Shown here one piece after another: positions 7,454 through 23,172 of a stretch of DNA of 26,538 bases. Both the position numbers and the translations under genes were made by a program. Every line of letters starts with the position of its first letter. The stretch's first letter is position 1. The stretch comes from a virus: the IMG/VR virus record IMGVR_UViG_3300044615_001162, positions 1 through 26,538 of that record, one strand, 5' to 3'. The notes under the pieces are model-generated. The model did no database searches. It was not told the DNA's origin and saw only the letters and a program-made list of their open reading frames with translations.

Positions 7454-10400
7454 ATGAACATAACCGAGCTCGATCAATACCGTCTCAGTGACGCTGTAAA
7501 ATTCAATCAAACACTGAACCCTCGACTTTGGGACGATCGCGAAAAAATGCGTCCCAAAGTTCGAGAGGCGCTGCTGCGCATTGCTGAAGATTTTCGTGAA
7601 TTTTTGGGTGTGAACGACGTTCAACTCAAAGACATCACAGTTTCTGGCAGCAATGCTGCTTATACCTACACACCACAGTCAGACATTGATCTACACTTGG
7701 TTGTAGACTTGCCCGAAGCTGACAGCAGTGAAGTTTATCGCGAGCTGTTTGATGCCAAAAAGTACCAATATAATGACATCCACAACATCACCATTGGCGG
7801 GTATGATGTAGAGTTGTACGTGGAAAATGCCAATGAACCACCAGTGAGTCAGGGTGTGTACAGTGTGCTGAACGACCAATGGGTAGAAGTGCCTCGACGC
7901 CGAAAAGCACAGGTGGACGATGTCAGTACCAAAAACAAGTACAATGACTTGGTCAACCGTATCAGCAGTGCCATGGAGTCCGGCAATGCTGAAGCATTGG
8001 CATCACTGATGACCAAAATAAAAACCATGCGCCAAGCAGGGTTAGAACAGCATGGCGAGTTTGGACCAGAGAATTTGGCATTCAAAATGCTGCGCAGCCA
8101 AGGCTGGATCAAGAAGCTGGTAGACGCAAGAAATGCTGCTCAAGACCGTGAAATGAGCTTGGACGAACGACGCCGACGCCGCAAGAAACCGCGAGTCACT
8201 TACGGCTGGGGTGGATTTGGCGGCTACTGGTATCCAGGCACTGCTTATGCTGGACAAGACCAACCCGCTGGCAGCGAAGGCACAGAAAGTGTCAAAGAAT
8301 CTCAACACACAGACAATGCTCCCAAACTGCGCACCAGTCTAGAACAAATCATCAAAGAATTTGTGGAAGCCATCAAACAAGAGCTTGGCATTCAACAACT
8401 GCCTGTGATCAAACTGCGCCATGATCCTGAATGGACCAGACGCAACGGCAGCTTTGGTCGCTATGATCCTGATCACAATGTGTTGTACGTGGCCACTGCT
8501 GGTCGTCATGTGCTGGATATACTACGCACGTTGGCTCACGAACTCACTCACAGACGCCAAGCTGAACTGGAAGACATTCCAGACTGGGGCGGTGAGACTG
8601 GATCTAGATTTGAAGACGAAGCCAATGCCATGGCCGGACGCATCATGCGACATCTGGCAGATCAACATCCTGAGTACTTTGCGGACATTGAACTCACTGA
8701 AGCAGCGTCAGGTTACATTCCCAAGAACAGGCGTGAAGCTCGGATGCCTCAGTATGCCATGGCTCTCAGCGTGGACATCAAGCCTGGGCAAACTGGCACT
8801 GAAGCCAACAAATTGGGGTTGAAAACAGGACCCAATGGTGAACCCACTCTGCTGATGAAATCAGCCAATCTGCTCAAAGAATATAAAGAATTCAAACGTC
8901 AGCTATCTCGCAACAATCCTGATCTCAACGATCCTCCAGGACCTGAATTTCGTCCCACCATGCCTGCTGGCACAGTCAAAGTAGATGTCAGTGATGTGTA
9001 TGACTGGTACAAACTGGGCACTCACATCAGCAATTTGAAAGGTCTTGGGCATCATGATTTTGGTGCTGGACCTCCTAGTACCATTGTGAGTTTTGGTGAC
9101 GAAGACACCGAACACAAATTTATTCAAGACCTCCGCGCCACTGGCCTGGATGTCACAGACATAGATCCGCGTGACCCCCGGCAATCGCCTGGTATGAAAA
9201 AGATCAAAACAGATCCCACATACAACGTAGACGAAAGTGAAGTGTTGGACGAAATCAAAATGTCGCCCACCAATCTACATGCAGAAGCTGCCAAGACAGG
9301 TGCCAGGGCCGGCATGGAATTTGAAATGATTGTGCCACCCATGGGTGGCGCCGATGATGTAGAATACGAACCTGACTACGACCGAGACCAGCGCTGCCGC
9401 AGTATTGATGATGCTGTGGAATTTTTCCAGGACGGTGACGGGGATGTAGAACGCCTACGAAAGCGCATGAGGGCTGACTATGAAGAATGGGTCATGGACC
9501 AGATTGACAATGATTGGTACAACAACAAAGACGATGTAATTCGCAGTTGGGTACAAGAAAATGTAGATCCCGCAGAGTGGTTGCCTCTGGTAGATGACAA
9601 CACCAGTGAAGAAGAAGCATTTGAACAGTTTGTGGGAGACATTGTAGACGACCCCACCAGTGATTACTATGACCAAGCTCTGGATGAGTTTAGGGAAGAG
9701 AAATATCAAGACTATGACGAAAACGACTGGTTAAGAGATCAAGATCTTGACCGGATGAGTTCGATTGAAAATGCCTATGACATTTCATGGCCTTACTGGA
9801 ACGAAATCAGCAGTGGAGCAGGAGTAGACATTGACCAAGTGGCTGACAGTTTCAGTCAAGCCATTGGCCGACCTGTTATTGCCAGCTATCGCTATAAAGG
9901 TGCTGAGAGAGAAGAAGGGAAGTACTTTGTCGAGCCCGATGGTAGTTTGAAGCCTAACAGTTCAGATGACATGGGATTGGAATTTGGCACTCCCAAAGGC
10001 GGACTGCCTTTGGACGAATTGTTGAGTGATCTCCCCAAAGTCAAGGCCTGGGCCATTAAGAATGGTTGCTACACCGGCAAAGCCAATAAAACTGGCCTAC
10101 ACATCAACGTGTCTGTGCCTGGCTATGATCTGTCAAAACTGGACTATGTGAAGTTGGCACTGTTACTGGGCGACGAATATGTGCTACAACAATTTGGGCG
10201 CAGCGCAGAACCCTATGCCAAATCTAGCATGATCAAGGTGCGAGAAATTGTGCGGCAAAATCCCAACCAAGCACAGGCCTTGTTGGATAAAATGCGTGGG
10301 CACATGAATCAGTTTGCCAGCAGAGTCATACAGTCGGGCAGCGAAGAAAAAATGGTGTCTATCAATACTCAGGACAAAGATGTTTACATTGAGTTTCGCT

Positions 10401-12100
10401 CACCCGGTGGCGACTGGCTCAAGGCCAACTTTGACAAAATTGAAAACACACTGATGCGATTTGTTGTGGCCACAGCCGCTGCCTTTGATCCTGAAGCTTA
10501 CCGAGAAGAATATCAAAAGAAGCTGTATGACCTGTTGACTGGTAAGACTGCCACCCGTGATCCAAAAACAGGTGATATAGAATGGACAATTGATGCCAAA
10601 GCTCCGGTATGGTACAAAGATGAAAGAACAGTCGATGGCAAAAAAGTATTCACTCCCAAACAGCGTCCAGCATTTAGCACAACAGTTACAGCATCAACAG
10701 CCGATGCTGCTTGGAAAAAAGCTCAAGAGCAAAATTCCACTGAATTGTCTGGTGCCAAAAAAAGTGACTATGTGATTGAACCCAAGAAAAAATCTCAATC
10801 CAACAATGAAGATCTACTGAAGATATTTTCTCAATATTCTGCTGGCAAGCTGCCAGAGTCGGCTTTACGAAGTTTTGTCAAACAAGCACAGTTAAAACGC
10901 CAGATAGCCCGAGATCCCACAGGCGGTCAACAGTACTGGTGGCGTGTGTACAAAGATGGCAAAGGTGCTCGCAACGGTGCCATGATAGAAGTGGTGGCAC
11001 GTACCAAGGCCGAAGCCATTGACAAAGCCGGAGCTGAATGGGGTCTGTTTTCAAAAGAATATCGCAACCTTATGGATGCCGAACCCATTAGGCCTTACGA
11101 TCAATCTCCTGCGAAGGCCCGAGTGGGTGAGCCGCAGCCAGTGGGACAACAGATTGACTACGAAATTTTCAATGTGCCCAACAGCACAGTGGTACACAAT
11201 TTTAGAGCTAGAGACGACGAAGCTGCATTGGCATATTTTGATCAATACATGTCACCCGACGATAGCATCTTCTACGATGTGCGCAGAGCTCCAGCAGCAC
11301 CACAACAAACCTACCTAATTAACAACGGCAGGTATAACACCTCATCTATTAGATCCTCTAGTACAGAAGATGCTATACAGCAATTCAGAGATCGTATAAG
11401 CAATGAATCCAATCCATCAACTTATAGTTTGATATCTGCCGACAATCAAGTTGTGGCCAGAGGCGGAGACCAAGGCACTGGCACACATACCTACAGAGCG
11501 TTTGACCTTAGAAACAACCAAACTCTTGGCACATTCCAAGGCGGTGAGCCAGGATCAGATTCAGCTGCTGAAGCATTTGCTGATATGTTGGCTAGAGAAG
11601 GTATCTCAGCCCAGTATGCTGATTATGAACTGCTGGGACAAGAGCGTCAACGATCACACCCCACTGCTGCCCGCCCCAACCGACCCAATGTAGGCACACA
11701 AACCGACATGGAAAACAGACTGGGCTGGCCAGGTCAAACTGGCGATGCCAACTACGAAATTGTGGATCGTAGAACTCAGCAGCCTGTGTTCTTGTTCGTT
11801 GCCAACACTGAAGCTGACGCTGCGCAAAAATACCAGCAATGGTTAGCTGCGGCTGGCTACTCGTCAGATCCCCAAGAACTTGGATGGCGTCAACGGGAAA
11901 CCACACAGGCCACACCACAGCAATCCAGCGGTGAGTTTACAGGCAACTGGTTGATCCAGGATCCTCAAGGCCGCACCATACACAGATTTGGTGGAGTGGG
12001 CAATGTTCAAAGCGATGCCAATCGCGTGGCCATTGCCTGGTTGCGAGCACACCCTGGCAGCATGCAAGCTGGAGTTACAGTAGTTCCGGAGATGCAATAA
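7454..12100 (+). CDS. Giant multi-domain protein: nucleotidyltransferase, zincin and amidoligase domains plus C-terminal repeats
   Basis: 1548 residues. (a) 1-150: minimal nucleotidyltransferase, with G65-S66, D77-I-D79 and D118. (b) About 290-400: zincin-type peptidase, with HELTH at 362-366 and a likely third ligand in FEDEAN (E387 or E389). (c) About 417-600: unassigned region. (d) About 615-1000: matches the putative amidoligase family (glutamine-synthetase-like fold), with GMEFEM from 620, a GLEFGTPKGG stretch, TGLHIN at 880-885 and EFR at 980-982. (e) About 1130-1548: at least six degenerate repeats beginning near 1161, 1236, 1287, 1347, 1434 and 1499. LTE416 before AA resembles a prohead-protease site. 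The late-type promoter and neighbours suggest a virion or injected multi-enzyme cargo. It could act on host proteins or peptidoglycan peptides; the substrate is unknown. Confidence 0.85.
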   Translation: MNITELDQYRLSDAVKFNQTLNPRLWDDREKMRPKVREALLRIAEDFREFLGVNDVQLKDITVSGSNAAYTYTPQSDIDLHLVVDLPEADSSEVYRELFDAKKYQYNDIHNITIGGYDVELYVENANEPPVSQGVYSVLNDQWVEVPRRRKAQVDDVSTKNKYNDLVNRISSAMESGNAEALASLMTKIKTMRQAGLEQHGEFGPENLAFKMLRSQGWIKKLVDARNAAQDREMSLDERRRRRKKPRVTYGWGGFGGYWYPGTAYAGQDQPAGSEGTESVKESQHTDNAPKLRTSLEQIIKEFVEAIKQELGIQQLPVIKLRHDPEWTRRNGSFGRYDPDHNVLYVATAGRHVLDILRTLAHELTHRRQAELEDIPDWGGETGSRFEDEANAMAGRIMRHLADQHPEYFADIELTEAASGYIPKNRREARMPQYAMALSVDIKPGQTGTEANKLGLKTGPNGEPTLLMKSANLLKEYKEFKRQLSRNNPDLNDPPGPEFRPTMPAGTVKVDVSDVYDWYKLGTHISNLKGLGHHDFGAGPPSTIVSFGDEDTEHKFIQDLRATGLDVTDIDPRDPRQSPGMKKIKTDPTYNVDESEVLDEIKMSPTNLHAEAAKTGARAGMEFEMIVPPMGGADDVEYEPDYDRDQRCRSIDDAVEFFQDGDGDVERLRKRMRADYEEWVMDQIDNDWYNNKDDVIRSWVQENVDPAEWLPLVDDNTSEEEAFEQFVGDIVDDPTSDYYDQALDEFREEKYQDYDENDWLRDQDLDRMSSIENAYDISWPYWNEISSGAGVDIDQVADSFSQAIGRPVIASYRYKGAEREEGKYFVEPDGSLKPNSSDDMGLEFGTPKGGLPLDELLSDLPKVKAWAIKNGCYTGKANKTGLHINVSVPGYDLSKLDYVKLALLLGDEYVLQQFGRSAEPYAKSSMIKVREIVRQNPNQAQALLDKMRGHMNQFASRVIQSGSEEKMVSINTQDKDVYIEFRSPGGDWLKANFDKIENTLMRFVVATAAAFDPEAYREEYQKKLYDLLTGKTATRDPKTGDIEWTIDAKAPVWYKDERTVDGKKVFTPKQRPAFSTTVTASTADAAWKKAQEQNSTELSGAKKSDYVIEPKKKSQSNNEDLLKIFSQYSAGKLPESALRSFVKQAQLKRQIARDPTGGQQYWWRVYKDGKGARNGAMIEVVARTKAEAIDKAGAEWGLFSKEYRNLMDAEPIRPYDQSPAKARVGEPQPVGQQIDYEIFNVPNSTVVHNFRARDDEAALAYFDQYMSPDDSIFYDVRRAPAAPQQTYLINNGRYNTSSIRSSSTEDAIQQFRDRISNESNPSTYSLISADNQVVARGGDQGTGTHTYRAFDLRNNQTLGTFQGGEPGSDSAAEAFADMLAREGISAQYADYELLGQERQRSHPTAARPNRPNVGTQTDMENRLGWPGQTGDANYEIVDRRTQQPVFLFVANTEADAAQKYQQWLAAAGYSSDPQELGWRQRETTQATPQQSSGEFTGNWLIQDPQGRTIHRFGGVGNVQSDANRVAIAWLRAHPGSMQAGVTVVPEMQ
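10934..12097 (+). repeat. Degenerate tandem protein repeats encoded at the 3' end of the giant gene
   Basis: Six copies of one small module begin near 10934, 11159, 11312, 11492, 11753 and 11948, spaced 51-87 residues. The shared pattern is Y/W-x-I/V/F, a turn, a second strand ending in F-x-A/S, then a helix with D/E-x-x-A (examples YEIVDRRTQQPVFLFVANTE and NWLIQDPQGRTIHRFGG). The DNA is diverged, so the duplications are old or the modules were gathered separately. Similar modules occur in four neighbouring genes. Confidence 0.55.
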
Positions 12101-13472: not shown

Positions 13473-14924
13473 ATGCGAGCATCAGAATTTGCTTTGACAG
13501 AATCTCAGACTGCCAAAACAGGCATCATGCAAACTGATGTGTACGGCAGCCGAGCCTATCACGCACGATGTTTGGAACCAGGCTGTGACTGGGAATCACG
13601 CAGATACGACCGTATCCAGCAGGCACAGTCCGCAGCAAAGAAACACGCCGCGACACATTTTGATAAAAAGGCTGTGGCGGAAGGTGCAACCGTAACACGA
13701 ATTGATTCTAAACTTGTTACAGATTTTGCGTCTGGCCTCAAAGCATACAAGCATACAGATGATTGGAGTCAGAGTGGGTTAGATACAGGTGACGATAGTT
13801 ATTGGAAAAACAAAAATCTTAAAACTAACACTACCAAAGGATTGTTTGCTGGTGATCCGCGTAGAACAGCATTATACGCTACAGGCAATGCACATGAAAC
13901 ACGCTATGTAGAATTTACGCAAAACGGTCAACCTATTGTTTATTTTGACCAAAAAGATTTGCCAGCAATGCGTAGTCGTAAAACCTACTTAACTGTGTTT
14001 GATGCTAGCAATTTCAGACAATTACCAACAGGTGAATGGTTTAGTAAAAATCCAGGTAAGCCTATCAAGCAAGTGCCAATCGGTGATCCATTCAAATATA
14101 TCGCTAGTCAAGGGTGGATAGTCCGTGTTACTGATGATTTAGATAAAGTATTCAAACAAGTTCAGAAAATGCACAAAGCAGGCAAAATTCCCTACTATGG
14201 TGCAGAGGGTATGAATGAAAGTAAACAAGGTGTGGCGGAAGGTTTAGACTCCGCAGAAAAAATATCTGGGCTGGTTGATATACCAGCATTTACGCCATCG
14301 GGTGTAGCAAAGGTAGTTAATACCGGTGATAGAATAATGGCAGTTATGAATGTTAAGGGAGTTAACATTCCTTTGTATATCAGCACCGGACAAGGTGGAA
14401 AAGCATCTGTAGCAACTGGGAAATGGTATCCGGTATTTGGTGTAGATCCTTCAACAGGGTGGCTAAACAAAGGCGGGGAAGCATCGATTAACAAATTTTA
14501 CGGAAGTAAGATTTTAGCACTCGCTGCGGCTAGATTAAACAACACATTAGGGGACTTATCTAATGTTGAGGATAAATTACCTGCAATGAAAAGATCAGGC
14601 CAAAGTGTTATCAACAAAGATTTACAACCAATGGGATATTCAGAAGCCGCGGCTAACCCTGATGAATTTAAAAAACGAGTTAATAGTTTTCTCGCTAAAT
14701 TAGGAGAAGGTCCCTTCTATCCAGTAGACAACCCCAAAGAACAAAGTGTGGCGGAAAACTTTGCCGACGGTCGGAAGCCTGGACGTAAAGGCTTGGCCAA
14801 GCGAGTGGGTGTGGACTGTAAACAGCCTGTGAGCAAACTGCGCAGCATAGCCAAAAACTCATCAGGAGAACGGCAACGCATGGCGCACTGGTGTGCCAAC
14901 ATGAAGGCAGGGCGCAAAAAATGA
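13473..14924 (+). CDS. CTS-like N-terminus, zinc finger and VAE-bounded modules with basic C-terminal cassette
   Basis: 483 residues. MRASEFALTE(S) at the start is a capsid-targeting-like peptide. C33, C38, H58 and H62 form a C2H2-like zinc site. Three V-A-E junctions at E70, E256 and E428 split the rest: module 71-256 (unknown, alpha/beta), module 257-428 (unknown, with STGQGGKASVATGKWYPVFG), and a basic end cassette containing RMAHWCANMKAGRKK. The two inner modules are visibly more A/T-rich than the flanks, as if inserted between an original N-terminus and C-terminus. GGTGA at 13461-13465 is a modest ribosome site. The stop overlaps the next start (ATGA). Functions of the modules are unknown; they are probably head-packaged cargo or virion proteins. 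Confidence 0.85.
   Translation: MRASEFALTESQTAKTGIMQTDVYGSRAYHARCLEPGCDWESRRYDRIQQAQSAAKKHAATHFDKKAVAEGATVTRIDSKLVTDFASGLKAYKHTDDWSQSGLDTGDDSYWKNKNLKTNTTKGLFAGDPRRTALYATGNAHETRYVEFTQNGQPIVYFDQKDLPAMRSRKTYLTVFDASNFRQLPTGEWFSKNPGKPIKQVPIGDPFKYIASQGWIVRVTDDLDKVFKQVQKMHKAGKIPYYGAEGMNESKQGVAEGLDSAEKISGLVDIPAFTPSGVAKVVNTGDRIMAVMNVKGVNIPLYISTGQGGKASVATGKWYPVFGVDPSTGWLNKGGEASINKFYGSKILALAAARLNNTLGDLSNVEDKLPAMKRSGQSVINKDLQPMGYSEAAANPDEFKKRVNSFLAKLGEGPFYPVDNPKEQSVAENFADGRKPGRKGLAKRVGVDCKQPVSKLRSIAKNSSGERQRMAHWCANMKAGRKK
13671..14756 (+). repeat. Three VAE-junction DNA repeats in the zinc-finger gene
   Basis: Copies end with the Glu codon at 13680-13682, 14238-14240 and 14754-14756. The core is GTGGCGGAA in all three, and the middle copy reads CAAGGTGTGGCGGAAGGT (14226-14243). 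All use GCG for alanine. They fall exactly where domain boundaries and base composition change, so they look like cassette borders as well as possible protease sites. Confidence 0.7.
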
Positions 14925-15643
14925 GAATTCAAGAAATACAAAGAACTACTGGTGACAAAGAAGGAATCAGCACCAAAGGTTTGAATTTTGATAAAAAAAC
15001 TTTGTCCCAGATCAAGATGTTGCCAGGCAGCAATCGTTTTGGTTATGTTGCTGGTGGCAATAGATCCGTGATATTCAGCGCCGATTATATTATTGACCTG
15101 TTTGATGTCAAACATCCCAAAGACGGACTAAGAAAAGCAGGCTTCCTTGCATTGCGTTCAGCGCCGTGGTTTCCTGTAAAAAACAGCTATCAAGTTTCCA
15201 ATGTTGCCATAGATAATGAATATCGTGGGCAGGGACTGGGTCAAAGCCTATATGGCATAGCAACAAAATTGTTGGGCATGACCATTGTGGCCGATGATGA
15301 ACAAACTCCTGAAGCTCGTAGTTCATGGCTACGCCTGTCACAGGTGCCAGGTGTGGTTATCCGTGGTTATACATCTCTGTTTGCCGATGACTGGGACAAC
15401 CAAGACAATCGCAGTGAAATATATGATGAAAGTGCCAAACGACTGATTAGTGCTTTGTTGCGAGCCGGTGGCCAAGAGCTTGGCGAAAATTCACCCTTTG
15501 TGTATGTAAGTTTTCCAGTGGGAGCCAATGCTGATCGCACTGAATTACAGTCCATACAAAAAGGCATTGGTATCTACAGTGCTCGTCATCCCGAAGAAGG
15601 TGGCACTGCCAATGGACTGTATGCTCAATGGGCAGGTCGCTGA
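14921..15643 (+). CDS. GNAT-family acetyltransferase
   Basis: 240 residues. The acetyl-CoA-binding motif A is clear: strand YQVSNVAID then YRGQGLGQSLY, with R102-G-Q-G-L-G107. A following helix and a SSWLRLSQVPGVVIRGY segment fit motif B. Family members move an acetyl group to an amine on a protein N-terminus, lysine, antibiotic or small metabolite; the substrate is not evident. The first ~80 residues are an additional N-terminal domain starting MRIQEIQ, which only loosely resembles the capsid-targeting peptides of its neighbours. The start overlaps the upstream stop (ATGA), so the gene is translationally coupled to the mosaic protein before it. It may be an injected enzyme that modifies host proteins, by context only. 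Confidence 0.85.
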   Translation: MRIQEIQRTTGDKEGISTKGLNFDKKTLSQIKMLPGSNRFGYVAGGNRSVIFSADYIIDLFDVKHPKDGLRKAGFLALRSAPWFPVKNSYQVSNVAIDNEYRGQGLGQSLYGIATKLLGMTIVADDEQTPEARSSWLRLSQVPGVVIRGYTSLFADDWDNQDNRSEIYDESAKRLISALLRAGGQELGENSPFVYVSFPVGANADRTELQSIQKGIGIYSARHPEEGGTANGLYAQWAGR

Positions 15644-15649
15644 CAGCAA

Positions 15650-15655
15650 TAAATA
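15650..15655 (+). promoter_or_regulatory. T4-type late promoter core, TAAATA
   Basis: TAAATA in the 19-base gap after the GNAT gene, ending eight bases before the ATG at 15663. The predicted leader is about two bases and there is no Shine-Dalgarno. Confidence 0.5.
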
Positions 15656-15662
15656 TAACACT

Positions 15663-15848
15663 ATGCGAGCCAAAGAAGTTGCTGGAGATTACAATCTATG
15701 GGGTGCCAGAGTCAGGGTAAAAAATGCCGACTTTGACGACTCTGTAGACGTGGCTGTGTATGCCAAAACTGCATACATGGCTCAGCAGCTGATTCGAGCA
15801 CAGTATGGCCGCAATGCTGTGATCAGCAATGTAAGGAAAATAGCCTGA
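15663..15848 (+). CDS. 61-residue stand-alone copy of the small beta-alpha module
   Basis: 61 residues. After a start resembling its neighbours (MRAKEV; the first eight bases ATGCGAGC are shared with the genes at 13473, 15848 and 17354) come two strands, a helix (YMAQQLIRAQYG) and a last strand (NAVISNVRKI). This is the same plan as the repeated module in the giant gene. Start 15663 is set by the late promoter and by the shared N-terminus; upstream in-frame codons lie inside the GNAT gene. Its TGA overlaps the next ATG (TGATG). Function is unknown. Confidence 0.7.
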   Translation: MRAKEVAGDYNLWGARVRVKNADFDDSVDVAVYAKTAYMAQQLIRAQYGRNAVISNVRKIA

Positions 15849-16429
15849 TGCGAGCCAGCGAATTTGTCACCGAAGCCTGCTGGTCAGATTATCAACAGCA
15901 GGGCATGAAGCGCAAGGGCAATAGAATGGTGCCTAACTGTGTGAAAAAAGAAAGCGCAGATCAAACCATGCCGGCTCTCACCTCAGACGAAGTGCGCCGT
16001 ATTCAACATGTGTTGAATGTTAAGTTTGGCGCCAATCTTGACGTGGATGGTAAAATGGGACCTTTGACTCGCGCAAGCATTCAGCAGCTATTGCCAGCTA
16101 TTAAAAAAACAGCAGCTCCAAATCCCAATAGGACCACGGCGGTACAAGGCGGCTATCTAAAACAAGGCATGATCAAAAACGAGCTAGACGAAGATCTACG
16201 CAAGTGGTTCCGTGAAAAATGGGTGCGTTTTGGTCCTGACGGCAAAATACGTGGCGACTGTGCCAGAGGCAGCAGCAGTGAAGGCAAGCCCAAGTGTTTG
16301 CCCCAAAGCAAAGCACAGGCTCTGGGCAAAAAAGGTCGTGCGTCAGCAGCAGCAAGAAAGCGCAGGCAAGACCCCAATCCAGAACGCTCAGGATCTGCTA
16401 TCAACGTGGCCACAAGGAAGAAAAAATGA
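15848..16429 (+). CDS. CTS-like N-terminus, PG-binding-like domain and DUF5872-like basic tail
   Basis: 193 residues. MRASEFVTEA (1-10) is capsid-targeting-like with a V-T-E site. A short cassette follows with Cys11 and Cys31 (CWSDYQQQGMKRKGNRMVPN then C). Residues about 44-85 match the PG_binding_1 helical repeat (LTSDEVRRIQHVLN, then VDGKMGPLTRASIQQL). Residues about 113-193 resemble DUF5872 (DLRKWFREKW, cysteines at 138 and 150, then a Lys/Arg-rich end). It may bind peptidoglycan or, through the basic tail, packaged DNA; neither is shown. Both ends overlap neighbouring genes (TGATG and ATGA), so it sits in one translation-coupled cluster. Confidence 0.85.
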   Translation: MRASEFVTEACWSDYQQQGMKRKGNRMVPNCVKKESADQTMPALTSDEVRRIQHVLNVKFGANLDVDGKMGPLTRASIQQLLPAIKKTAAPNPNRTTAVQGGYLKQGMIKNELDEDLRKWFREKWVRFGPDGKIRGDCARGSSSEGKPKCLPQSKAQALGKKGRASAAARKRRQDPNPERSGSAINVATRKKK

Positions 16430-17049
16430 ATTTGAACAATCTATTTGAGGCCACTGCGCCAGCACAGCCAGAACCCAACAAAGATTATGCTATCTATGTA
16501 GACGACGCACCTGTGGTCAAATTTGAATCCTTACAGCAGGCCAAACAAACCTATGCTGATCTGTATCAACAGTTTCCTGAAAAGAAAATTGAAATACGTG
16601 CTGTTAACAAGCTACGCGAAAGCCAAACCAATCTGCGCACTGCTCAAGCCCTGAGTCGCGAGCTAGAAAGCGAAATGGAAGATCTCATGGCCATACGTCA
16701 GGCCGGTGCTGCCACTGGTGCTGGCAACCCGCACGGTGTTCAGAGTTTGATCAACAACATCAAAGAACTGGTGGCCGAACTCAATCGCCTGGGCTATGAA
16801 TTTGATCCTAACACACCAGGCTATTTGCGTCCACTGACCATTGATGTTGATGGCACTGATCAGCTGCGTGAACAACGCTGTGTGGAATGCGGAGGCGCAG
16901 CATTTACCAATTTGATTCTCAGCGAGAAAAAAGACGCTTGTTATTACAAAGTAAAGAGTCGTTACAAAGTGTGGCCTTCGGCCTATGCGTCAGGTGCTTT
17001 GGTACAGTGTCGCAAAAAAGGCTCTAAAAATTGGGGCAGCAAAGGCTGA
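16426..17049 (+). CDS. CTS-like N-terminus, beta-alpha module, coiled coil and Cys-rich C-terminal cassette
   Basis: 207 residues, starting at the ATG that overlaps the upstream stop (ATGA). MNLNNLFEA resembles the neighbouring targeting peptides with an L-F-E site. Residues 20-60 are one copy of the small module (DYAIYVDDAPVVKFESLQQA). A charged helical or coiled-coil stretch follows at about 64-92, then a second helical part. The last 56 residues carry four cysteines (152, 155, 172, 195) and a conserved-looking basic block (YYKVKSRYKVWPSAYASGAL). C152-C155 with C172 and C195 could hold zinc. Function is unknown; context suggests virion or head cargo. Confidence 0.8.
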   Translation: MNLNNLFEATAPAQPEPNKDYAIYVDDAPVVKFESLQQAKQTYADLYQQFPEKKIEIRAVNKLRESQTNLRTAQALSRELESEMEDLMAIRQAGAATGAGNPHGVQSLINNIKELVAELNRLGYEFDPNTPGYLRPLTIDVDGTDQLREQRCVECGGAAFTNLILSEKKDACYYKVKSRYKVWPSAYASGALVQCRKKGSKNWGSKG

Positions 17050-17051
17050 CA

Positions 17052-17351
17052 GTGTGGTACGGTTATGCCATTGTGGTTTGCGAAGTTCACTGTGAATGGC
17101 GGCACGAGCCTCCGCGGTACAGACTGTTTGTCAACGACGAATTGTTTGTGGAGCGACAATACATTTGGCAAACAGAATATTTGGAAGAAGTCATACCAAT
17201 ATGGGTCGACCCAGGTGATTACAAAATTGTTTATGAAATTGTGTCTGGATATCGTGGCTTGTTTGACATCAAAAACATGCGTGTTGAAGACGGTCCGCCA
17301 GGTGCCACAGTGCTCAACAACAGAGTTTTAAGAATACCCAAACCAGAATAA
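17052..17351 (+). CDS. Small beta-rich protein, unknown function
   Basis: 99 residues from GTG 17052, chosen because AAAGG at 17041-17045 is well placed; a TTG at 17031 would overlap the upstream gene by 19 bases. Rich in Tyr, Val, Glu and Trp with alternating hydrophobic residues, so probably all-beta (CEVHCEWRHEPPRYRLFVND, then DPGDYKIVYEIVSGYRG). It has no signal peptide and lacks the shared N-terminal peptide of its neighbours. I do not recognise it. It may be a small virion component. Confidence 0.75.
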   Translation: MWYGYAIVVCEVHCEWRHEPPRYRLFVNDELFVERQYIWQTEYLEEVIPIWVDPGDYKIVYEIVSGYRGLFDIKNMRVEDGPPGATVLNNRVLRIPKPE

Positions 17352-17353
17352 AA

Positions 17354-17560
17354 ATGCGAGCTCGAGAATTTTTACAAGAAGTTGCGGCTGTGACCAGCAG
17401 TGGATCAGTGGCCACTGTGGCCATGCCTTTGATCACACTGTCAAGGCAAGATGGATCCAGCAAGTCAGGTAAATACTCTAACGATCCTGACATACAACAG
17501 GATCAACCAAAAAGGACTTCGCATGCTGTCAGACAGTTTAAAAACTCTATTAGCAAGTAA
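17354..17560 (+). CDS. Short protein with CTS-like N-terminus
   Basis: 68 residues. MRAREFLQEV is one of the best matches to the shared targeting-like peptide, with L-Q-E as the likely cleavage site; its ATGCGAGC start is identical to three neighbours. The remaining ~58 residues are Ser/Thr/Gln-rich and probably disordered, ending basic. It starts two bases after the upstream stop and overlaps the Dps gene by 38 bases, while hosting the Dps promoter and ribosome site inside its 3' half. It could be a minimal internal head protein like the T4 IPs, or the remnant of a larger cargo protein whose body has been lost. Confidence 0.6.
   Translation: MRAREFLQEVAAVTSSGSVATVAMPLITLSRQDGSSKSGKYSNDPDIQQDQPKRTSHAVRQFKNSISK
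17470..17475 (+). promoter_or_regulatory. T4-type late promoter core, TAAATACT, for dps
   Basis: TAAATACT inside the preceding short gene, 47 bases before the Dps ATG at 17523. The leader would contain AAAGGA at 17511-17516, so this gene has a normal ribosome site and its own promoter. Confidence 0.5.
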
Positions 17561-17963
17561 TTTTGCTTACTATCTTAAAGCACAACAGTTTCACTGGAAT
17601 GTGGAAGGTCCAGACTTTGGTGAACTACATGAGTTTTTTCAAAACATCTATGAGGATGCTTATTCAGCTATAGATCCTGTTGCAGAGTACATAAGATATC
17701 TTGACGAGTATGCACCTGGAAGTTTTGAACGCTTTAGCGAGCTAACACAAATTCCAGGCCAGACCAAGATACCACGTGCTCGACTCATGATTGAAGAACT
17801 TTTGGCCAATAATCAACAAATGATTGATTTGTTGAATCGATGTTTTGCAGCAGCAGAACAGGAAAATCAACAGGGTATTGCTGACTTCTTGGCAGGACGT
17901 CTGAGCCAACATGGAAAATATCATTGGCAATTGCGTAGTTATTTGAAAGACGCCAGAGCATGA
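17523..17963 (+). CDS. dps: Dps-family ferritin-like protein
   Basis: 146 residues. The Dps signature is clear in QQFHWNVEGPDFGELHEFF and the following helix. H24, H36, D51 and E55 align in spacing with E. coli Dps ferroxidase ligands H51, H63, D78 and E82; the place of D67 is Q40. Dps dodecamers oxidise and store iron and protect DNA; this one lacks a long Lys-rich N-terminal tail for DNA binding. ATG 17523 is fixed by AAAGGA at 17511-17516, six bases upstream. A longer in-frame form from 17451 would start before the late-type promoter core ends. The stop overlaps the next start (ATGA). It could guard host or virion DNA against Fenton damage, or collect iron for the virion. Confidence 0.92.
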   Translation: MLSDSLKTLLASNFAYYLKAQQFHWNVEGPDFGELHEFFQNIYEDAYSAIDPVAEYIRYLDEYAPGSFERFSELTQIPGQTKIPRARLMIEELLANNQQMIDLLNRCFAAAEQENQQGIADFLAGRLSQHGKYHWQLRSYLKDARA

Positions 17964-18844
17964 GCCAATTTGATATCAGTGGTTTTTTACGACAGTTAGA
18001 CACCATGGAGGGCAAAATCACTCCAGTGGGTGTGAAAAAAGGCTTGAACACGGCGCAACGTGATGTGCCTCAGATGCCAGCCTTGTTCAAGATGAAGGGT
18101 CAAAGTCCTGTGTTGGGCGGCCCTGTTAAACCACATCCCGCTGGCAAGTATTTTGTGGGCGACGACGTTGAAATGGACGTGGCACAAACGCCCTTGGAAG
18201 AAGCCATGCGCAACGTGGAAGAAGACATGTTGAGTCGTGTTAAAAAAGATCTCACACATTATCTTGACATGCTGAGTGATCAAGTCAAAGATCAAAAAGA
18301 AATACAAAAGAAAGCAGTCAAAGACGTAGAAGATCGCAATCCTGCCCGAGCTGGAGATCAAGACACACACGAAGATCAAGAAAAGCTGGATGAATTTTTG
18401 CCAGCTCTGGGCGCTGTGGTAGGACGAGCGTTGGTTGGCAAAGCAGCTCGACCTCTGGCCAAAGCCGCAGCTGGCATGGCTGGACACATTGTGGGATCAG
18501 AGTTGGAACGAAAACTGCGAAAAAATGACATCGACGAAGATCCCACACAACAAGAGTTTGACACTGAACCTGTGCCCACACCTGTTGTGAATCCTACCAT
18601 GCCAGAGTCAGCCAGTTCTAGCTCAGGTGCTCCAGTGGTCATGATTGAACTGGCCGAAGGCGACATGTGCGAAATCTACGGCAACGATCAAGACGGCTAT
18701 CAAGTGCGTCGAGGACAAAGAACCTTGCCCACTCGTTTCAGCGAGTTGGATCATGCCAAAACTGCTGTTCAACTGTGGCGTGCTCGTAGAGCAGCTCAGT
18801 CTCAGCCCAAGCCAATTGATCAAGACTATGTGGATGAACGATAA
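17960..18844 (+). CDS. Helical protein with Gly/Ala-rich hydrophobic segment and C-terminal beta-alpha module
   Basis: 294 residues; the start overlaps the Dps stop (ATGA). About 78-125 is a charged helical, probably coiled-coil stretch. Residues 146-179 are hydrophobic and Gly/Ala-rich with spaced basic residues (FLPALGAVVGRALVGKAARP), amphipathic rather than a plain membrane helix. About 247-275 (YQVRRGQRTLPTRF, then a helix) matches the small module repeated in neighbouring genes. ELAEG at 230-234 is a possible prohead-protease-type site directly before that module. The N-terminus is not of the shared targeting type. It may be a core/scaffold or ejection protein. The TAA overlaps the next ATG (TAATG). 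Confidence 0.8.
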   Translation: MSQFDISGFLRQLDTMEGKITPVGVKKGLNTAQRDVPQMPALFKMKGQSPVLGGPVKPHPAGKYFVGDDVEMDVAQTPLEEAMRNVEEDMLSRVKKDLTHYLDMLSDQVKDQKEIQKKAVKDVEDRNPARAGDQDTHEDQEKLDEFLPALGAVVGRALVGKAARPLAKAAAGMAGHIVGSELERKLRKNDIDEDPTQQEFDTEPVPTPVVNPTMPESASSSSGAPVVMIELAEGDMCEIYGNDQDGYQVRRGQRTLPTRFSELDHAKTAVQLWRARRAAQSQPKPIDQDYVDER

Positions 18845-21800
18845 TGATCTTAAACGAATTTTTTGAATCAAACAAAGGTGGCTCAGAAGTCAAATTAAAT
18901 GAACTGGGACCTGCAGCATTGGCAGCACTGGGCGCAGCAGGCGGAGCCGGGGCGTGGTTGGTCAATAAAATGTTTCCTGACGAAGGCGACCCGCAATTTA
19001 AAAAACCTGAGCCGCCGCCAGAAATCAAAAAACCTCCGCAGAAACCCGACGACCTTGACTACAGCAAACGTGAAACGCTGCCGTCTACTCGGCAAGGCAT
19101 GGGGCCGCGGCCTGAACGCACTGTCAAAGAAGTTGATGCCAAAGTAGAGCCACCAGCAGGCTCATGGCAAGACATTTGGAAACAAAATCCTGATATCAAA
19201 AATCCCCATCTCATATTTCCTGGCCAACAAATAAAGTTGCCCAATAATACATTTGCTGTGGTTGACCGAGGCGACACCCTGAGTGGCATTGCTCAGAGAT
19301 ATCAGCAAGGAGGGTACAACACTGGCAGAGAAATCGCTCCAAACGCTGCGTCTCCAGCATCTGTCAGACCCGCTGCTCAACCCGCGGTTCCTGCTGCTAG
19401 ACCTGCTGCTCAACCCACAGCTCCCGCTGCCAGACCCGCTGCTCAGCCATCTAGAACTGCGCAAAGCAGTCAGTCTGCAATGGCCTCTTTTCCTACCAAA
19501 AGTGGTCGAGTGTATGCTGCTGACTTCAACAATCCCAGTGGCATAGGATGGGACGGCAAAGGCAAGTACACCAGTTACAAATCGCCCGAAGAAGGAGTGC
19601 TGGCCACTAAAAATCTAGTGTCTAGATACATATCTAATCAAACTCCATACATCAAAGGGCCTGCCACTCCAGAACAAGTGGTCAGCACATGGGTCAGTGG
19701 TGGAGTAACACCAGCTGAAAAAATTCAAGGTGGCAGATACTTACAATCAGTGAGAAATGAACTGGCAGCAGCGGGTGTACAGCTAGACAGCCAAGGAAGA
19801 ATACCCAACACGCAGGCTGCCACAGATGCCATAACCAGAGCCATTGTGCGACATGAGACTTCACCAAAACATTTGGACAAATTTGCTCCTTATTTGAACC
19901 CCAAACAAGCTGTACCAGAAGATGTGACGGAAACATCAGACTATTTCCGTCGTAGGGAGCGTGAAGAAGCAATTATCAGTGGTCAAAAACCTGCTCGCAA
20001 AAAACAACCTGTTCAAACCAGTGATTATGCTCGTCGTAGAGAACAGGAAAAGAAAGCCGAGAAAGGTGTAGCGGAAGGCTCTGATACACAATTATCAATT
20101 CAACAATTGGCAACAATCAGCGACGAAGCATTAGATAATGCATATGGTTATGGTCGTAGTAGTCCGGGCAATACTTTTGGTTGGCAAGCAAACCTGATGT
20201 CAGCAGCATACGCTAAAAAAATGATAGATGCTGGTGTTACAGACATTGAAAAAATTAGCGATGCTATACACAAGGGATGGAATGTAACAGCACAAAAGTT
20301 TGTTCAAAATCCTGATCAATTTGATGATACAGAAAAATTGCGTCAAGCAGGAAAATTAGAAGCAAAACTTCAACAAAGAGCCAAGTTAATGAAGATAAAC
20401 TATGCTCAACTTGACAATGAAGAACAAGAAAAAGATCGTGTTGTTGCCCGTGCATTACTACAAGCAATTAAAAATCAACAAGGTGTGGCGGAGGCTGCAA
20501 CAGATGATCCACGTTTTCAAAAGATGATGGGCAACATACAGCAGTCCACTCCCAACCCAGTTAACGGGTATGTGGCAGTCAGCTATGCCAGTGAACGACC
20601 TTCAAAAAAAATCAAAGGTGTTACATACAACGGTAAACCAATGCCCAGCACGGTTGATCCTGAAGAATTCATGGGCAGTAAAATAAAATTCACACCTGAT
20701 CAAATTGAAGAAAAACTAATGAAAATTGGCCAAAAATACGGGTGGGACTCGATTGATCCTGGACATGGCCAAGGCTATGACGAATTGTATTTTGATACCA
20801 GGACAGAATATACATCAGCCACCCAACGTCAACTGGCTGTAAACATAGTCAAGACTGTTGACGAAATTAATAAATTCTTTACCGGAATGAACAGTAGTTT
20901 ACAAGCTACAGGATTACCAGGATACAAAGTAAGTGTATGGCAAGGTATGGGAGAAAATGGCAACATAGATCAATACGAAGATCTATCTCATATTACTAAT
21001 ATTGCCAAGGGCCAGACAGCAAAGCCTGATGCCGGTCCGGCTATTGGTAAAATGATCCTCAAGCACTTACCAAGTTACGAAGCCGAAAATGATGAATTGG
21101 GATATGATCCACAAGATTTTCAAGCGGCCAGAAATATTGCAAATATTTACATCACCAAAGGCGAACGTGCCGGGCTCCAAGCACAGGGCGATTCTGAAGT
21201 CAGTGAAATGATTGACGAATTGCTAAGTGACGCAGGCGCCAGTGGTTTAAGAACTATTTGGGACCTTGACGAGCAAGGTATGGCGGAAGGCTCACTAAAC
21301 GAAGGTCAATATGAAATGATGATGCGTAATGGACAAGTCAAAAAGTTCATTGCCAAAGATGATGCCGATGCCAAGCGTATCGCAGCCGGGCACGGTGCTA
21401 AAAGTGTTATTAAATTAAGAGGCGGGGTTCCTGCCGGTAAAATAGCAGAGCAAGGTGTGGCGGAAGTAAGTTCAAAAACATTAGCCGCAGCAGCTAATCA
21501 GGCTCAAAACAAATATAACTTGGCAGCAAGTTCAGATAACAACTTATCGCACCAAGAAGCCCAGGCCTTGATGAAGTTGTACAAAGATAAAATAGAGAAA
21601 TTCAAAACTGCTGGGCAAGCTGCACAACAAAGAGACTCAAAAAAACAAACTCTAAGTCAGTTTAGTTCAGCAGCACTGAGAAAAGCTGGCGTGGCTGAAG
21701 TCAGTGATGCCACCAAACAAAGTTACAAAGCCAAAGCACAGGCACAGGTACGAGAATTAGAACCACACGCTAAAAAGGGCGAGTATAAAGATATTGCTCA

Positions 21801-23172
21801 GCGAGCCATAGACCGCAGAACCAAAGGTTTGGCTAGAATTGATGTCAAAGATGCGCAAAAGCTGGCACCGCGTGTGAGTGAAAGTTTTGCTATAAAAACA
21901 CCAGAAGGAAGGCCTGCGCTGGGGCAATTCAACATGACCACCGTGGTCAGAGATTATCATCAAAACTTGCCTTTTGCCAATTTGAGTTTTGGCAACAGTG
22001 GCAATTTGAAAATTGATCGCAAGCAGATGCGTATAGTCATGGATCACTATTTGGGACTGCTATCGCCTGAAGAAAAACATGACTTTGTGTACGAAACCAT
22101 GAGCAGACTGCTCAAAGTGGTTGCGCTGTTTGATCGTTACAAAGTTGACGTGCGCAACCAAATTGAATTGCCAGTGGGTCAAAAATCAGAAATTCCTGGA
22201 GTACAGCCCAAACTGCTTGAAGTCGATGCTGGCCAAGTCAAAGACACCAGATTGAGTCAGGCTCTTAAACAAGCTCGAGCTGCGTTTCCCACTGCTGGGT
22301 CTGACATAGAAGCCTTTCTCAAACTGGTCATGAGCAACGACGATCGTGACCTCAAAACCATGAGTCAGCTTCAAGCAGTGAATCAACAGCAGAGCAAAAT
22401 CATCGACCGTATACAAGACATTGATAAAAAACAAAACCAAGAAATTGACAGTCTAGATGCTGAACTGGATCGTGTGACTCAAATCAACAAAGGTCTGGAA
22501 CGCAAACTGGATCAGATGGGCAGAGGCAAACCCAGTAAAAAAGCTGACAAGGCGGAACCAGCTCCAGCCGCAGAACCTGCGGCCACAGCTCCCAAGGCAC
22601 AGCCCAAAGTTGACTTGCCAGTGGGCAGCAAAGTGCCAGTGAAAAAGGCACCGGCAAAGGCTCGGGCCACGTCAGTACCAGTGCCAAAAGCCCCAGAGAC
22701 ACCAGCACTGCCAAACTACAGTGTGAGCTTCAAAGGATTGAGCAAGCCGTCTGGCGATGCGCAGAGAGCTTTGCCTCTGACCAGCCCTGACAACGTGATA
22801 CAGTTTCCCCGATCTCAGCCCAAAGGCATGAGTCTATTTGATCCCAATGAGCCACCCACTGATGTGGTTCCAAAAGATTACAGCAGACTTCAGGCTGAGT
22901 TTGGTCAACCAGACGAACTAGAACCAGAACGTCAGCAAAGATTTGCCGAAGGCACTAAAACAAAAAATATTGGCCAAAAAGATTTTGACAGTTTTTCTGA
23001 TGAAGATTGGGAAGAATGGGACAAAAAGGTTCAGCGGCTGGGCCAGCGAGCTCAACCCAAGCCAGCCAAGGCCAGTGAGCCAAAGGCACAGCCATCAACC
23101 GACAAAAAATCCAACATGACCGAAGCCAGACTACACCGCAGAGCTGTGCTGCGTCAAATCTTAGAATCATAA
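18844..23172 (+). CDS. Giant mosaic protein: CTS-like start, LysM-like, lysozyme-like and RyR-like domains, VAE-bounded modules
   Basis: 1442 residues. (a) MILNEFFES, targeting-like. (b) 21-42: Gly/Ala-rich hydrophobic stretch. (c) 107-155: LysM-like halves (IWKQNPDIKNPHLIFPGQ and RGDTLSGIAQRY), in inverted order to a normal LysM. (d) 175-203: Pro/Ala tandem repeats. (e) About 214-350: lysozyme-like, P5-type pattern (NNPSGIGWDG). (f) 365-402: two TSDY-RRRE units. (g) Five junctions with E411, E550, E815, E874 and E952. Module 412-550 ends like a RyR domain (AIHKGWN, then NYAQLDNEEQEKDR). 551-815 is unknown; 816-874 is a beta-alpha module; 875-952 is helical. (h) About 953-1442: original-looking C-terminus with coiled coil and Lys/Pro/Ala-rich parts. 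Modules are A/T-richer than the flanks. It is probably a late, head- or virion-associated cargo protein that also acts on the cell wall. Confidence 0.85.
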   Translation: MILNEFFESNKGGSEVKLNELGPAALAALGAAGGAGAWLVNKMFPDEGDPQFKKPEPPPEIKKPPQKPDDLDYSKRETLPSTRQGMGPRPERTVKEVDAKVEPPAGSWQDIWKQNPDIKNPHLIFPGQQIKLPNNTFAVVDRGDTLSGIAQRYQQGGYNTGREIAPNAASPASVRPAAQPAVPAARPAAQPTAPAARPAAQPSRTAQSSQSAMASFPTKSGRVYAADFNNPSGIGWDGKGKYTSYKSPEEGVLATKNLVSRYISNQTPYIKGPATPEQVVSTWVSGGVTPAEKIQGGRYLQSVRNELAAAGVQLDSQGRIPNTQAATDAITRAIVRHETSPKHLDKFAPYLNPKQAVPEDVTETSDYFRRREREEAIISGQKPARKKQPVQTSDYARRREQEKKAEKGVAEGSDTQLSIQQLATISDEALDNAYGYGRSSPGNTFGWQANLMSAAYAKKMIDAGVTDIEKISDAIHKGWNVTAQKFVQNPDQFDDTEKLRQAGKLEAKLQQRAKLMKINYAQLDNEEQEKDRVVARALLQAIKNQQGVAEAATDDPRFQKMMGNIQQSTPNPVNGYVAVSYASERPSKKIKGVTYNGKPMPSTVDPEEFMGSKIKFTPDQIEEKLMKIGQKYGWDSIDPGHGQGYDELYFDTRTEYTSATQRQLAVNIVKTVDEINKFFTGMNSSLQATGLPGYKVSVWQGMGENGNIDQYEDLSHITNIAKGQTAKPDAGPAIGKMILKHLPSYEAENDELGYDPQDFQAARNIANIYITKGERAGLQAQGDSEVSEMIDELLSDAGASGLRTIWDLDEQGMAEGSLNEGQYEMMMRNGQVKKFIAKDDADAKRIAAGHGAKSVIKLRGGVPAGKIAEQGVAEVSSKTLAAAANQAQNKYNLAASSDNNLSHQEAQALMKLYKDKIEKFKTAGQAAQQRDSKKQTLSQFSSAALRKAGVAEVSDATKQSYKAKAQAQVRELEPHAKKGEYKDIAQRAIDRRTKGLARIDVKDAQKLAPRVSESFAIKTPEGRPALGQFNMTTVVRDYHQNLPFANLSFGNSGNLKIDRKQMRIVMDHYLGLLSPEEKHDFVYETMSRLLKVVALFDRYKVDVRNQIELPVGQKSEIPGVQPKLLEVDAGQVKDTRLSQALKQARAAFPTAGSDIEAFLKLVMSNDDRDLKTMSQLQAVNQQQSKIIDRIQDIDKKQNQEIDSLDAELDRVTQINKGLERKLDQMGRGKPSKKADKAEPAPAAEPAATAPKAQPKVDLPVGSKVPVKKAPAKARATSVPVPKAPETPALPNYSVSFKGLSKPSGDAQRALPLTSPDNVIQFPRSQPKGMSLFDPNEPPTDVVPKDYSRLQAEFGQPDELEPERQQRFAEGTKTKNIGQKDFDSFSDEDWEEWDKKVQRLGQRAQPKPAKASEPKAQPSTDKKSNMTEARLHRRAVLRQILES
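19366..19452 (+). repeat. 33-bp tandem repeat, three units
   Basis: Units begin at AGA codons at 19366, 19399 and 19432 and encode RPAAQP plus a variable five-residue spacer. They form a flexible Pro/Ala linker between the LysM-like and lysozyme-like parts of the giant protein. The third unit is partial. Confidence 0.8.
20065..21699 (+). repeat. Five VAE-junction DNA repeats in the giant mosaic gene
   Basis: Copies end with the Glu codon at 20074-20076, 20491-20493, 21286-21288, 21463-21465 and 21697-21699. CAAGGTGTGGCGGA is identical at 20479-20492 and 21451-21464, and identical to a copy in another gene at 14226-14239; 21274-21287 differs at one base. Four of five use GCG for alanine. Each marks a module boundary. 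Confidence 0.75.

Follow-up and report, generated by a model that had tools for sequence, protein, structure and literature searches.

Viral genes take up, lose, copy, and re-order protein cassettes exactly at a short in-frame junction sequence, here called the seam, both within and between genomes. The 15-base junction CAAGGTGTGGCGGAA (Q-G-V-A-E) recurs in frame in more than 100 viral contigs, often several times per gene. The phenomenon is real and far larger in extent than the window, by which we mean the whole 26,538-nt stretch of DNA analyzed (IMGVR_UViG_3300044615_001162). The reading that we prefer, with a probability of roughly two in three, is that the mosaic genes encode polyproteins that are packaged in the head and cut by a protease and that short-homology recombination at the seam, which is universal and in frame, exchanges their cassettes. 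We would also put at a little better than even the chance that these ~15 to 20 bp hold two codes, serving at once as a self-propagating in-frame DNA recombination seam and as a head-protease site, so that a T4-like lineage pools injectable cassettes that can be inserted anywhere.

Cassettes are exchanged at the seam

Two mosaic genes of the window contain the eight in-frame junctions reported in the earlier note, which we confirmed at E70, E256, and E428 of the gene starting at 13473 and at E411, E550, E815, E874, and E952 of the gene starting at 18844. Three places, 14226-14239, 20479-20492, and 21451-21464, carry exactly the same 14-mer, CAAGGTGTGGCGGA, and the junction alanine codon is GCG in seven of the eight, both as originally described. 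The features of the two genes are as follows.

13473..14924, + strand: mosaic gene 1 (483 aa); N terminus MRASEFALTE|S, resembling the T4 capsid-targeting sequence
13668..13682, + strand: seam 1, AAGGCTGTGGCGGAA (KAVAE)
13683..14225, + strand: cassette C (181 aa, DUF6886-like; Pfam PF21820)
14226..14240, + strand: seam 2, CAAGGTGTGGCGGAA (QGVAE)
14241..14741, + strand: cassette after C (from the L309/L317 alignment)
14742..14756, + strand: seam 3, CAAAGTGTGGCGGAA (QSVAE)
14757..14924, + strand: basic C-terminal module (NFADGRKPGRKG...; K4 cluster; L315, L318)
18844..23172, + strand: mosaic gene 2 (1442 aa); N terminus MILNEFFE|S; LysM at aa 107-133
19918..19932, + strand: possible ninth, degenerate seam, GAAGATGTGACGGAA (EDVTE)
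20062..20076, + strand: seam 4, AAAGGTGTAGCGGAA (KGVAE)
20077..20478, + strand: cassette B (134 aa), found in many unrelated contexts; modeled with AlphaFold2
20479..20493, + strand: seam 5, CAAGGTGTGGCGGAG (QGVAE)
20494..21273, + strand: cassette of 260 aa, common to the window and L066 from seam to seam
21274..21288, + strand: seam 6, CAAGGTATGGCGGAA (QGMAE)
21289..21450, + strand: cassette A (54 aa, YEMMMRNGQVKKF...), found in ~20 different contexts
21451..21465, + strand: seam 7, CAAGGTGTGGCGGAA (QGVAE)
21466..21684, + strand: short cassette (73 aa) between seams 7 and 8
21685..21699, + strand: seam 8, degenerate, GCTGGCGTGGCTGAA (AGVAE)

Several seams are degenerate. With at most one mismatch allowed, GGTGTGGCGGAA had seven coding-strand matches in the window and none on the other strand, and its reversed control pattern had none; the looser 9-mer alone gave a weaker signal (11 matches versus 4.4 expected). 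No Rfam element or tRNA gene was found in the window, which gives no support for an RNA-level element or a tRNA target site. When contigs were retrieved with the bare 14-mer, 108 of 120 had the seam in frame. The seam is close to AG-CAAGGTGTGGCGGAA-GGC, in a single reading frame (Q-G-V-A-E-G). Seams were nearly always on the coding strand and thus formed direct repeats. The 17-mer also matched 70 stretches of bacterial genomes; these had a single copy each and no array in the open frames inspected, so we regard them as background. A search of the open-access literature returned no description of such a seam and none that joined GVAE, phage, and cleavage.

The proposal that modules are gained and swapped at a conserved border was borne out by breakpoints and by the exact presence or absence of cassettes. 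Cassettes A, B, and C of the window were traced through protein similarity alone, and the relatives found in this way were bordered by seams and lay in unrelated neighboring sequence. Module borders coincided with the core, identity jumping from ~0.30 to 0.91 there, and cassette homology began and ended at the junction in many unrelated host proteins (identity of ~30% outside versus 0.8 to 0.9 inside, in summary ~85 to 90%). Alignments ended on junctions in both partners in 621 of 2230 cases, compared to 8.4 expected (maximum, 30). At pattern-only loci, breakpoints fell at junctions in 128 of 877 cases, compared to 3.0 expected (maximum, 18) and to 9.9 (maximum, 23) with random Glu codons as the control. 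The proportion of sites with an alignment end followed seam likeness downward (72%, 59%, 41%, and 33%, with 20% for any xxE). Single cassettes were present or absent exactly between cores, as for 360 nt in a comparison of L311, L312, and L320 with L318. A recent move is seen between the window and L226, which share 434 bp at 99.1% identity in different flanks, and a recent copy is seen in L110, two genes of which share a cassette (99.4% over 167 bp).

Cassette C (match to PF21820, E value of 9.6e-7, 29.0 bits at a cut-off of 27) was present in ~10 protein contexts unrelated to each other, and in L317 a relative of the cassette that follows it in the window stands before it, i.e., in swapped order. 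The basic C-terminal module recurs at the last place in other genes. The 260-aa cassette aligned with L066 over 818 bp at 90.5% identity, and the L066 protein is differently built. Residues 221 to 351 of mosaic gene 2 resemble an open reading frame (ORF) of MW202520 situated between portal and tail spike. Cassette B is predicted to be a complete helical domain (AlphaFold2 mean pLDDT, 94.1) with no significant relative in the PDB; cassette C was modeled poorly (mean pLDDT, 61.5), and no PDB entry matched it. Pfam and PHROGs gave almost nothing on the cassettes apart from DUF6886. Among annotated phages, DNA searches gave no match; in protein searches, the matches to genes with cassettes were all weak and local, and no record matched cassette A or B.

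A candidate head-protease site

The suggestion that the border might also be a protease site gained support from the constraint on P1 and P3, from the S77 protease, and from T4-like N termini, and the seam peptide, judged by its sequence, is probably the cut site of a head-maturation enzyme. P1 was Glu in 189 of 191 seams, and P3 was hydrophobic (V/M/L/I) in 188 of 191. According to PMC9026906, T4 gp21 cleaves L/I-x-E and the capsid-targeting sequence (CTS) of T4 is the first 10 residues. The near-invariance of Glu at P1 and of a hydrophobic residue at P3 fits such a site, and the seams share the hydrophobic-x-Glu pattern of T4-type processed head proteins, with Val replacing Leu/Ile at most sites. 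The S77 prohead protease (PF03420) was found in 14 of 26 long contigs, and all 14 also had Gp23 (PF07068), the N termini of which read LLAE|S or YLSE|S where maturation is expected; the window, a 26.5-kb fragment, has neither the protease nor a capsid gene. CTS-like N termini were found in 44% of junction genes versus 14% of other genes at the same loci (p = 4e-13), where start sites were guessed and a clear targeting-like N terminus was limited to roughly half of the junction genes. The N termini MKAREFITE|A and MKTTDFITE|N resemble the IPIII targeting peptide. Neighboring genes without seams also have CTS-like N termini. Several points count against the packaged-and-cleaved reading: the preference of T4 for Leu/Ile at P3, where the seam has Val; the lack of both genes from the window; these limits of the N-terminal pattern; and the degeneracy of several seams.

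Some junction genes are without a targeting-like N terminus, as would be expected if the seam were a recombination boundary and inter-domain linker only, in ordinary multidomain proteins that would be left unpackaged and uncut. Of the alternatives this one survives best, but we consider it unlikely. A linker needs no invariant Glu, nor a fixed hydrophobic residue two positions upstream; T4-type protease and capsid genes co-occur; and related small modules are found in a cyanophage protein annotated as "structural protein," near terminase.

Large T4-like environmental phages carry mosaic genes that encode tandem protein cassettes joined by the universal seam, and for these we infer the following course of events. 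With all seams alike and in phase 0, recombination of the ordinary short-homology kind (UvsX type or annealing) between any two of them would give an in-frame product, and every exchange would propagate the canonical seam. T4-like targeting sequences at the N terminus may bring the products into the prohead, and an S77 prohead protease (gp21 type) would cut after V-A-E, so that each cassette becomes an internal-head or ejected protein of its own. A protease site would account for the tolerance of in-frame borders at any position, because a freed cassette need not fold with its neighbors.

Conservation of the seam DNA and the route of exchange

Conservation of the core at the DNA level, also proposed in the earlier note, goes beyond codon usage (96 of 133 versus 0.8 expected). 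The synonymous codons of V-A-E, checked for free variation, proved to be fixed: GCG makes up 7.7% of alanine codons overall but 124 of 133 (93%) at seams. The third, synonymous base of the codon upstream of the seam is G in 71%, and GGC is conserved downstream. Fourfold sites were identical at a frequency of 0.74 in the seam versus 0.42 in the cassette, and conservation of the seam DNA persists where the adjoining cassette nears synonymous saturation.

Such persistence would suit a dedicated recombination element, i.e., ~20 bp of DNA recognized by a specific recombinase or endonuclease that moves the cassettes in the way that Rci acts at the sfx sites of a shufflon or IntI at attC, as would the larger number of breakpoints at sites closer to the DNA consensus and the free-standing homing-endonuclease-like ORFs that adjoin gp23 in L296 and L301. 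We nevertheless regard this element as improbable. Neither a tyrosine recombinase (PF00589) nor a serine recombinase (PF00239) was found in the 26 long contigs (0/26 for each), the seams are direct repeats, nearly all on the coding strand, and many working borders carry 2 to 4 mismatches. In agreement with homology-driven modular exchange at boundary sequences, breakpoints at a common short sequence were found along with recombination proteins, a RecA-type protein being present in 13 of the 26 long contigs.

The same DNA conservation bears on a purely protein-level account, which it already disfavors and to which we give a rather small chance. There, VAE would be a prohead-protease site, exchange would occur anywhere with selection keeping the breaks at domain borders, and DNA identity would reflect codon bias or recent ancestry. 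The P1 Glu and the hydrophobic P3 are indeed the positions under strongest constraint, and VxE-like sites without seam DNA are also enriched in breakpoints (33% versus 17%). However, the seam codons run opposite to the bias, conservation extends to the upstream third base and the downstream GGC, and fourfold sites are kept better in the seam than in the bordering cassette. An assembly artifact, in which a short repeat led assemblers to fuse unrelated phages, is very improbable: although the contigs are all metagenomic, cassettes A and B match no annotated phage record, and mis-assembly may affect any single contig, the arrangements recur across separate metagenomes (L232-L234, L241-L243, and L311/L312), the joins are in frame, cassette divergence is graded (73 to 99%), and a repeat of 15 to 20 bp is shorter than usual assembly k-mers.

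Relation to known systems and composition

The mosaic genes resemble those of the gp21-processed T4 internal proteins (IPI-III and Alt) in their V/M/I/L-x-E site and in the presence of the S77 protease and Gp23 capsid in contigs with seams, and perhaps in their CTS-like N termini. In contrast to the single N-terminal site and single module of the T4 proteins, they have up to eight seams and many cassettes in one frame, and the sites have a conserved DNA sequence. Processed inner-body or ejection proteins with S/A-x-E and A-x-E sites are described for the giant phages phiKZ, 201phi2-1, and SPN3US in portions of PMC5694885 and PMC9026906; there too, a prohead protease cleaves large head proteins behind Glu, in some cases at more than one position. 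The protease specificity differs, however, and those portions describe no repeated DNA seam or cassette exchange at the sites.

In shufflons (R64 pilV), the Rci recombinase inverts segments between inverted 19-bp sfx repeats. Short repeats within an ORF likewise delimit exchangeable segments here, but they are direct repeats, nearly all on one strand and in several genes, exchange is between genomes, and no Rci-type tyrosine recombinase was found in the 26 contigs. Integron arrays also have a universal short border at which any cassette joins any array; the cassettes here are in-frame protein pieces rather than genes, with no attC-like structure identified and no IntI-type integrase (PF00589, 0/26), and the resolvase-type recombinase of serine-recombinase cassettes was likewise absent (PF00239, 0/26). 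Phage boundary or linker sequences and the promoter-stem-loop cassettes of T4 (modular shuffling) promote mosaicism through short sequences common to module borders, but these are intergenic and border specific, whereas the seam is intragenic and the same at all borders. In CdiA (VENN) and Rhs, too, swappable modules are bordered by a protein motif; there, the C-terminal tip alone changes, through long homology, in contrast to internal tandem cassettes with a seam of ~15 to 20 bp.

If a universal in-frame seam is also a protease site, cassettes could be shared as freely as integron genes. This would provide a concrete mechanism for rapid evolution of proteins, mostly of unknown function, that the phage probably carries into the cell, and it would be of practical use in recognizing internal head proteins. 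With cuts at the seam, giant-phage proteins labeled "hypothetical," thousands of them, could be resolved into their real functional units, as illustrated by cassette B, which is predicted to be a complete domain when cut at its seams.

The impression that inner DNA is more A/T rich than the gene ends held mostly in the window, where third-position GC content (GC3) was mostly 0.22 to 0.37 for inner pieces and 0.38 to 0.57 for gene ends. As a general rule it failed: inner pieces and gene ends did not differ among 127 comparable genes (0.327 versus 0.338; Wilcoxon p = 0.19), and general AT richness of cassettes was rejected. This outcome does not contradict exchange and is compatible with its taking place inside a pool of compositionally similar phages.

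The seam in the window and in other contigs

All eight junctions claimed for the two mosaic genes in the earlier note were found, each at the residue and coordinates it had reported. The cassettes are the protein pieces between seams, a seam being an in-frame DNA repeat of about 15 bases that reads Q-G-V-A-E. The genes and the three cassettes traced here are the following.

13473-14924 (+), mosaic gene of 483 aa
13683-14225 (+), cassette C, in the 483-aa gene
18844-23172 (+), mosaic gene of 1442 aa
20077-20478 (+), cassette B, in the 1442-aa gene
21289-21450 (+), cassette A, in the 1442-aa gene

A pattern scan of the window for GGTGTGGCGGAA with at most one mismatch gave seven occurrences, every one of them on the coding strand; the opposite strand and a reversed control pattern gave none. 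EDVTE, at 19918-19932, may be a degenerate site and the ninth junction of the window.

The earlier note had singled out the 14-base core CAAGGTGTGGCGGA as the sequence to look for in related contigs, and this bare 14-mer, scanned over viral contigs, matched at least 120 stretches. Among the matches listed, 108 of 120 were in frame as QGVAE within an ORF, and over one third of the loci had two or more QGVAE copies (maximum, five). Conservation extended past the 14-mer (the preceding codon ended in G in 71%, and the next codon was mostly GGC), and the alignment was random beyond ~20 bases around the seam. In each of 26 long contigs (102 to 525 kb), there were between 1 and 9 occurrences of the seam pattern, mostly in clusters and on a single strand. 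A 17-base version matched 70 stretches in bacterial genomes; since each of these stretches held a single copy and the open frames inspected contained no cassette array, we regard them as background.

In-frame cassettes are exchanged, gained, lost, and copied at a DNA-conserved seam

Cassettes A (54 aa), B (134 aa), and C (181 aa) were traced by protein similarity alone, so that loci were not picked by their seams, and were found in 26, 29, and 14 loci, respectively. Neighbours on either side varied between loci, and the seam was present at the borders. That module borders coincide with the seam, as had been proposed, was borne out both by cassette A and by an excess of breakpoints. Around cassette A, nucleotide identity averaged over pairs was ~0.30 up to the upstream seam, 0.91 in that seam, ~0.85 within the cassette, and ~0.3 directly past the downstream seam. 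Of 2230 interior alignment ends in a non-redundant set of 186 junction genes, 621 fell at a seam in both partners (randomly shifted seams gave a mean of 8.4 and a maximum of 30), and in pattern-only loci 128 of 877 ends did so versus 3.0 expected, or 9.9 when seams were assigned to random Glu codons. As cassette families are common to several loci, the counts lack independence, but the effect is nonetheless large. The proportion of sites with an alignment end was 72%, 59%, and 41% for 0 to 1, 2 to 3, and 4 to 5 mismatches to the seam consensus, 33% for sites of the VxE type that lack seam DNA, and 20% for other xxE sites, with a random expectation of 16 to 19%.

Single cassettes were also present or absent exactly between cores: 360 nt between two seams, with both flanks homologous, were present in three related viral contig loci (L311, L312, and L320) and absent in L318, and L033 and L199 differed in the same way. 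The order is swapped in L317, where C comes second and the cassette behind it in the window comes first. Recent moves were also seen: a seam-to-seam stretch of 434 bp is 99.1% identical between the window and L226, with different flanks, and a 167-bp seam-to-seam cassette occurs in two genes of the L110 contig at 99.4% identity, a recent copy within one genome. Identical arrangements recurred in contigs of different metagenomes (L232-L234, L241-L243, and L311/L312), which counts against assembly joins. A 17-kb contig from another metagenome, IMGVR_UViG_3300043803_001847 (L198, L224, and L309), has both mosaic genes and showed 100% amino acid identity to all three queried cassettes. In L319, the seam that follows cassette C (CAAGGTGTAGCGTAA) has a stop codon in place of P1 Glu, and the protein terminates exactly there. 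In six contigs (L217-L222), a short ORF of 198 codons that has no seam holds a relative of cassette A; this may be an ancestor that was never shuffled, or the module may serve a different use there.

The junction proved to be conserved as DNA. GGTGTGGCGGAA encoded 96 of 133 GVAE peptides in the protein-found loci versus 0.8 expected from their codon usage, and GCG, which made up 7.7% of alanine codons in those loci, was used in 124 of 133 seams. In cassette B pairs at ~75% DNA identity, fourfold-degenerate sites were 42% identical within the cassette versus 74% in the seam. The seam is thus more conserved than its neighbourhood, whether through repeated exchange or through selection acting on the DNA.

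Protein-level constraint and a possible route of exchange

Constraint was also seen on the protein. In 191 in-frame seam-like sites picked without an amino acid filter, changes numbered 2 and 0 at bases one and two of the P1 Glu codon and 3 at the middle base of the P3 codon, versus up to 52 at other positions; P1 was Glu in 189 sites, and in 188 sites P3 was one of V, M, L, and I. PMC9026906 gives the T4 gp21 site as L/I-x-E; the seam has the same form, with Val where T4 has Leu/Ile. An S77 prohead protease was found in 14 of the 26 long contigs, all 14 of which also had a Gp23-type capsid protein. The Gp23 proteins of these phages contain LLAE|S, YLSE|S, or YLKE|N (the bar marking the presumed cut) shortly ahead of the conserved part, where maturation would be expected. 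A T4-like targeting pattern was present at the N-terminus of 44% of junction genes versus 14% of other genes of the same loci (p = 4e-13). Many of these N-termini are of the type MKAREFITE|A or MKTTDFITE|N, which we take to be close to the T4 IPIII peptide. Directly downstream of gp23, L296 and L301 have ORFs that read by eye like GIY-YIG and HNH endonucleases, a different insertion in each. The window also encodes a 1548-aa protein (7454-12100) with a targeting-like N-terminus (MNITEL), one LTE|A site, a weak nucleotidyltransferase-like region (PF01909), and a HELTH motif at residue 362.

We hypothesize that cassettes are exchanged by homology-driven recombination and that the products are packaged and then cleaved by the prohead protease. 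Any two seams could then pair, which would explain the same seam everywhere; the single frame would keep the product of exchange open; each exchange would spread the canonical sequence, accounting for its conservation as DNA; and Glu would be fixed because cleavage frees each cassette. The main alternative is that a dedicated recombinase or nuclease acts on the seam. A RecA-type protein was found in 13 of the 26 long contigs, and neither a tyrosine nor a serine recombinase was found in any of them. T4 targeting peptides, gp21 sites, mosaicism at short shared sequences, and the in-frame repeats of shufflons are already known; we found no description in the open-access literature of a universal in-frame seam, common to many genes and phages, that is also a likely protease site. 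If both codes, DNA seam and protease site, were proven, the system would merit the rank of a new kind.

Cassettes and neighbouring genes

Cut at its seams, cassette B was predicted to form a complete helical domain (mean pLDDT, 94), for which no solved relative was found. Cassette C is a DUF6886 member, and its structure model was poor. The 1442-aa protein begins with a piece that contains LysM and a region resembling an ORF of phage MW202520 that lies between portal and tail-spike genes, a position typical of ejection proteins; judged by this similarity, the piece may have such a role.

Small modules at 15848-16429 and 16426-17049, basic or cysteine-containing (EACWSDYQQQGMKRKGNRMVPNC... and KKDACYYKVKSRYKVWPSAYASGALVQCRKKG...), are found again in a protein whose gene lies near that of the large terminase in cultured Synechococcus phages. 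In S-B43 this is QDH50481, annotated as a structural protein, and 499 phage records match this protein with varying module coverage. Its sites are VSE or VTE, and two cyanophage records with the protein showed no seam DNA; the seam may thus be younger than this modular type of protein. Amid the cassette gene cluster of the window lies a ferritin/Dps-like gene (17451-17963; PF00210, E 2e-23).
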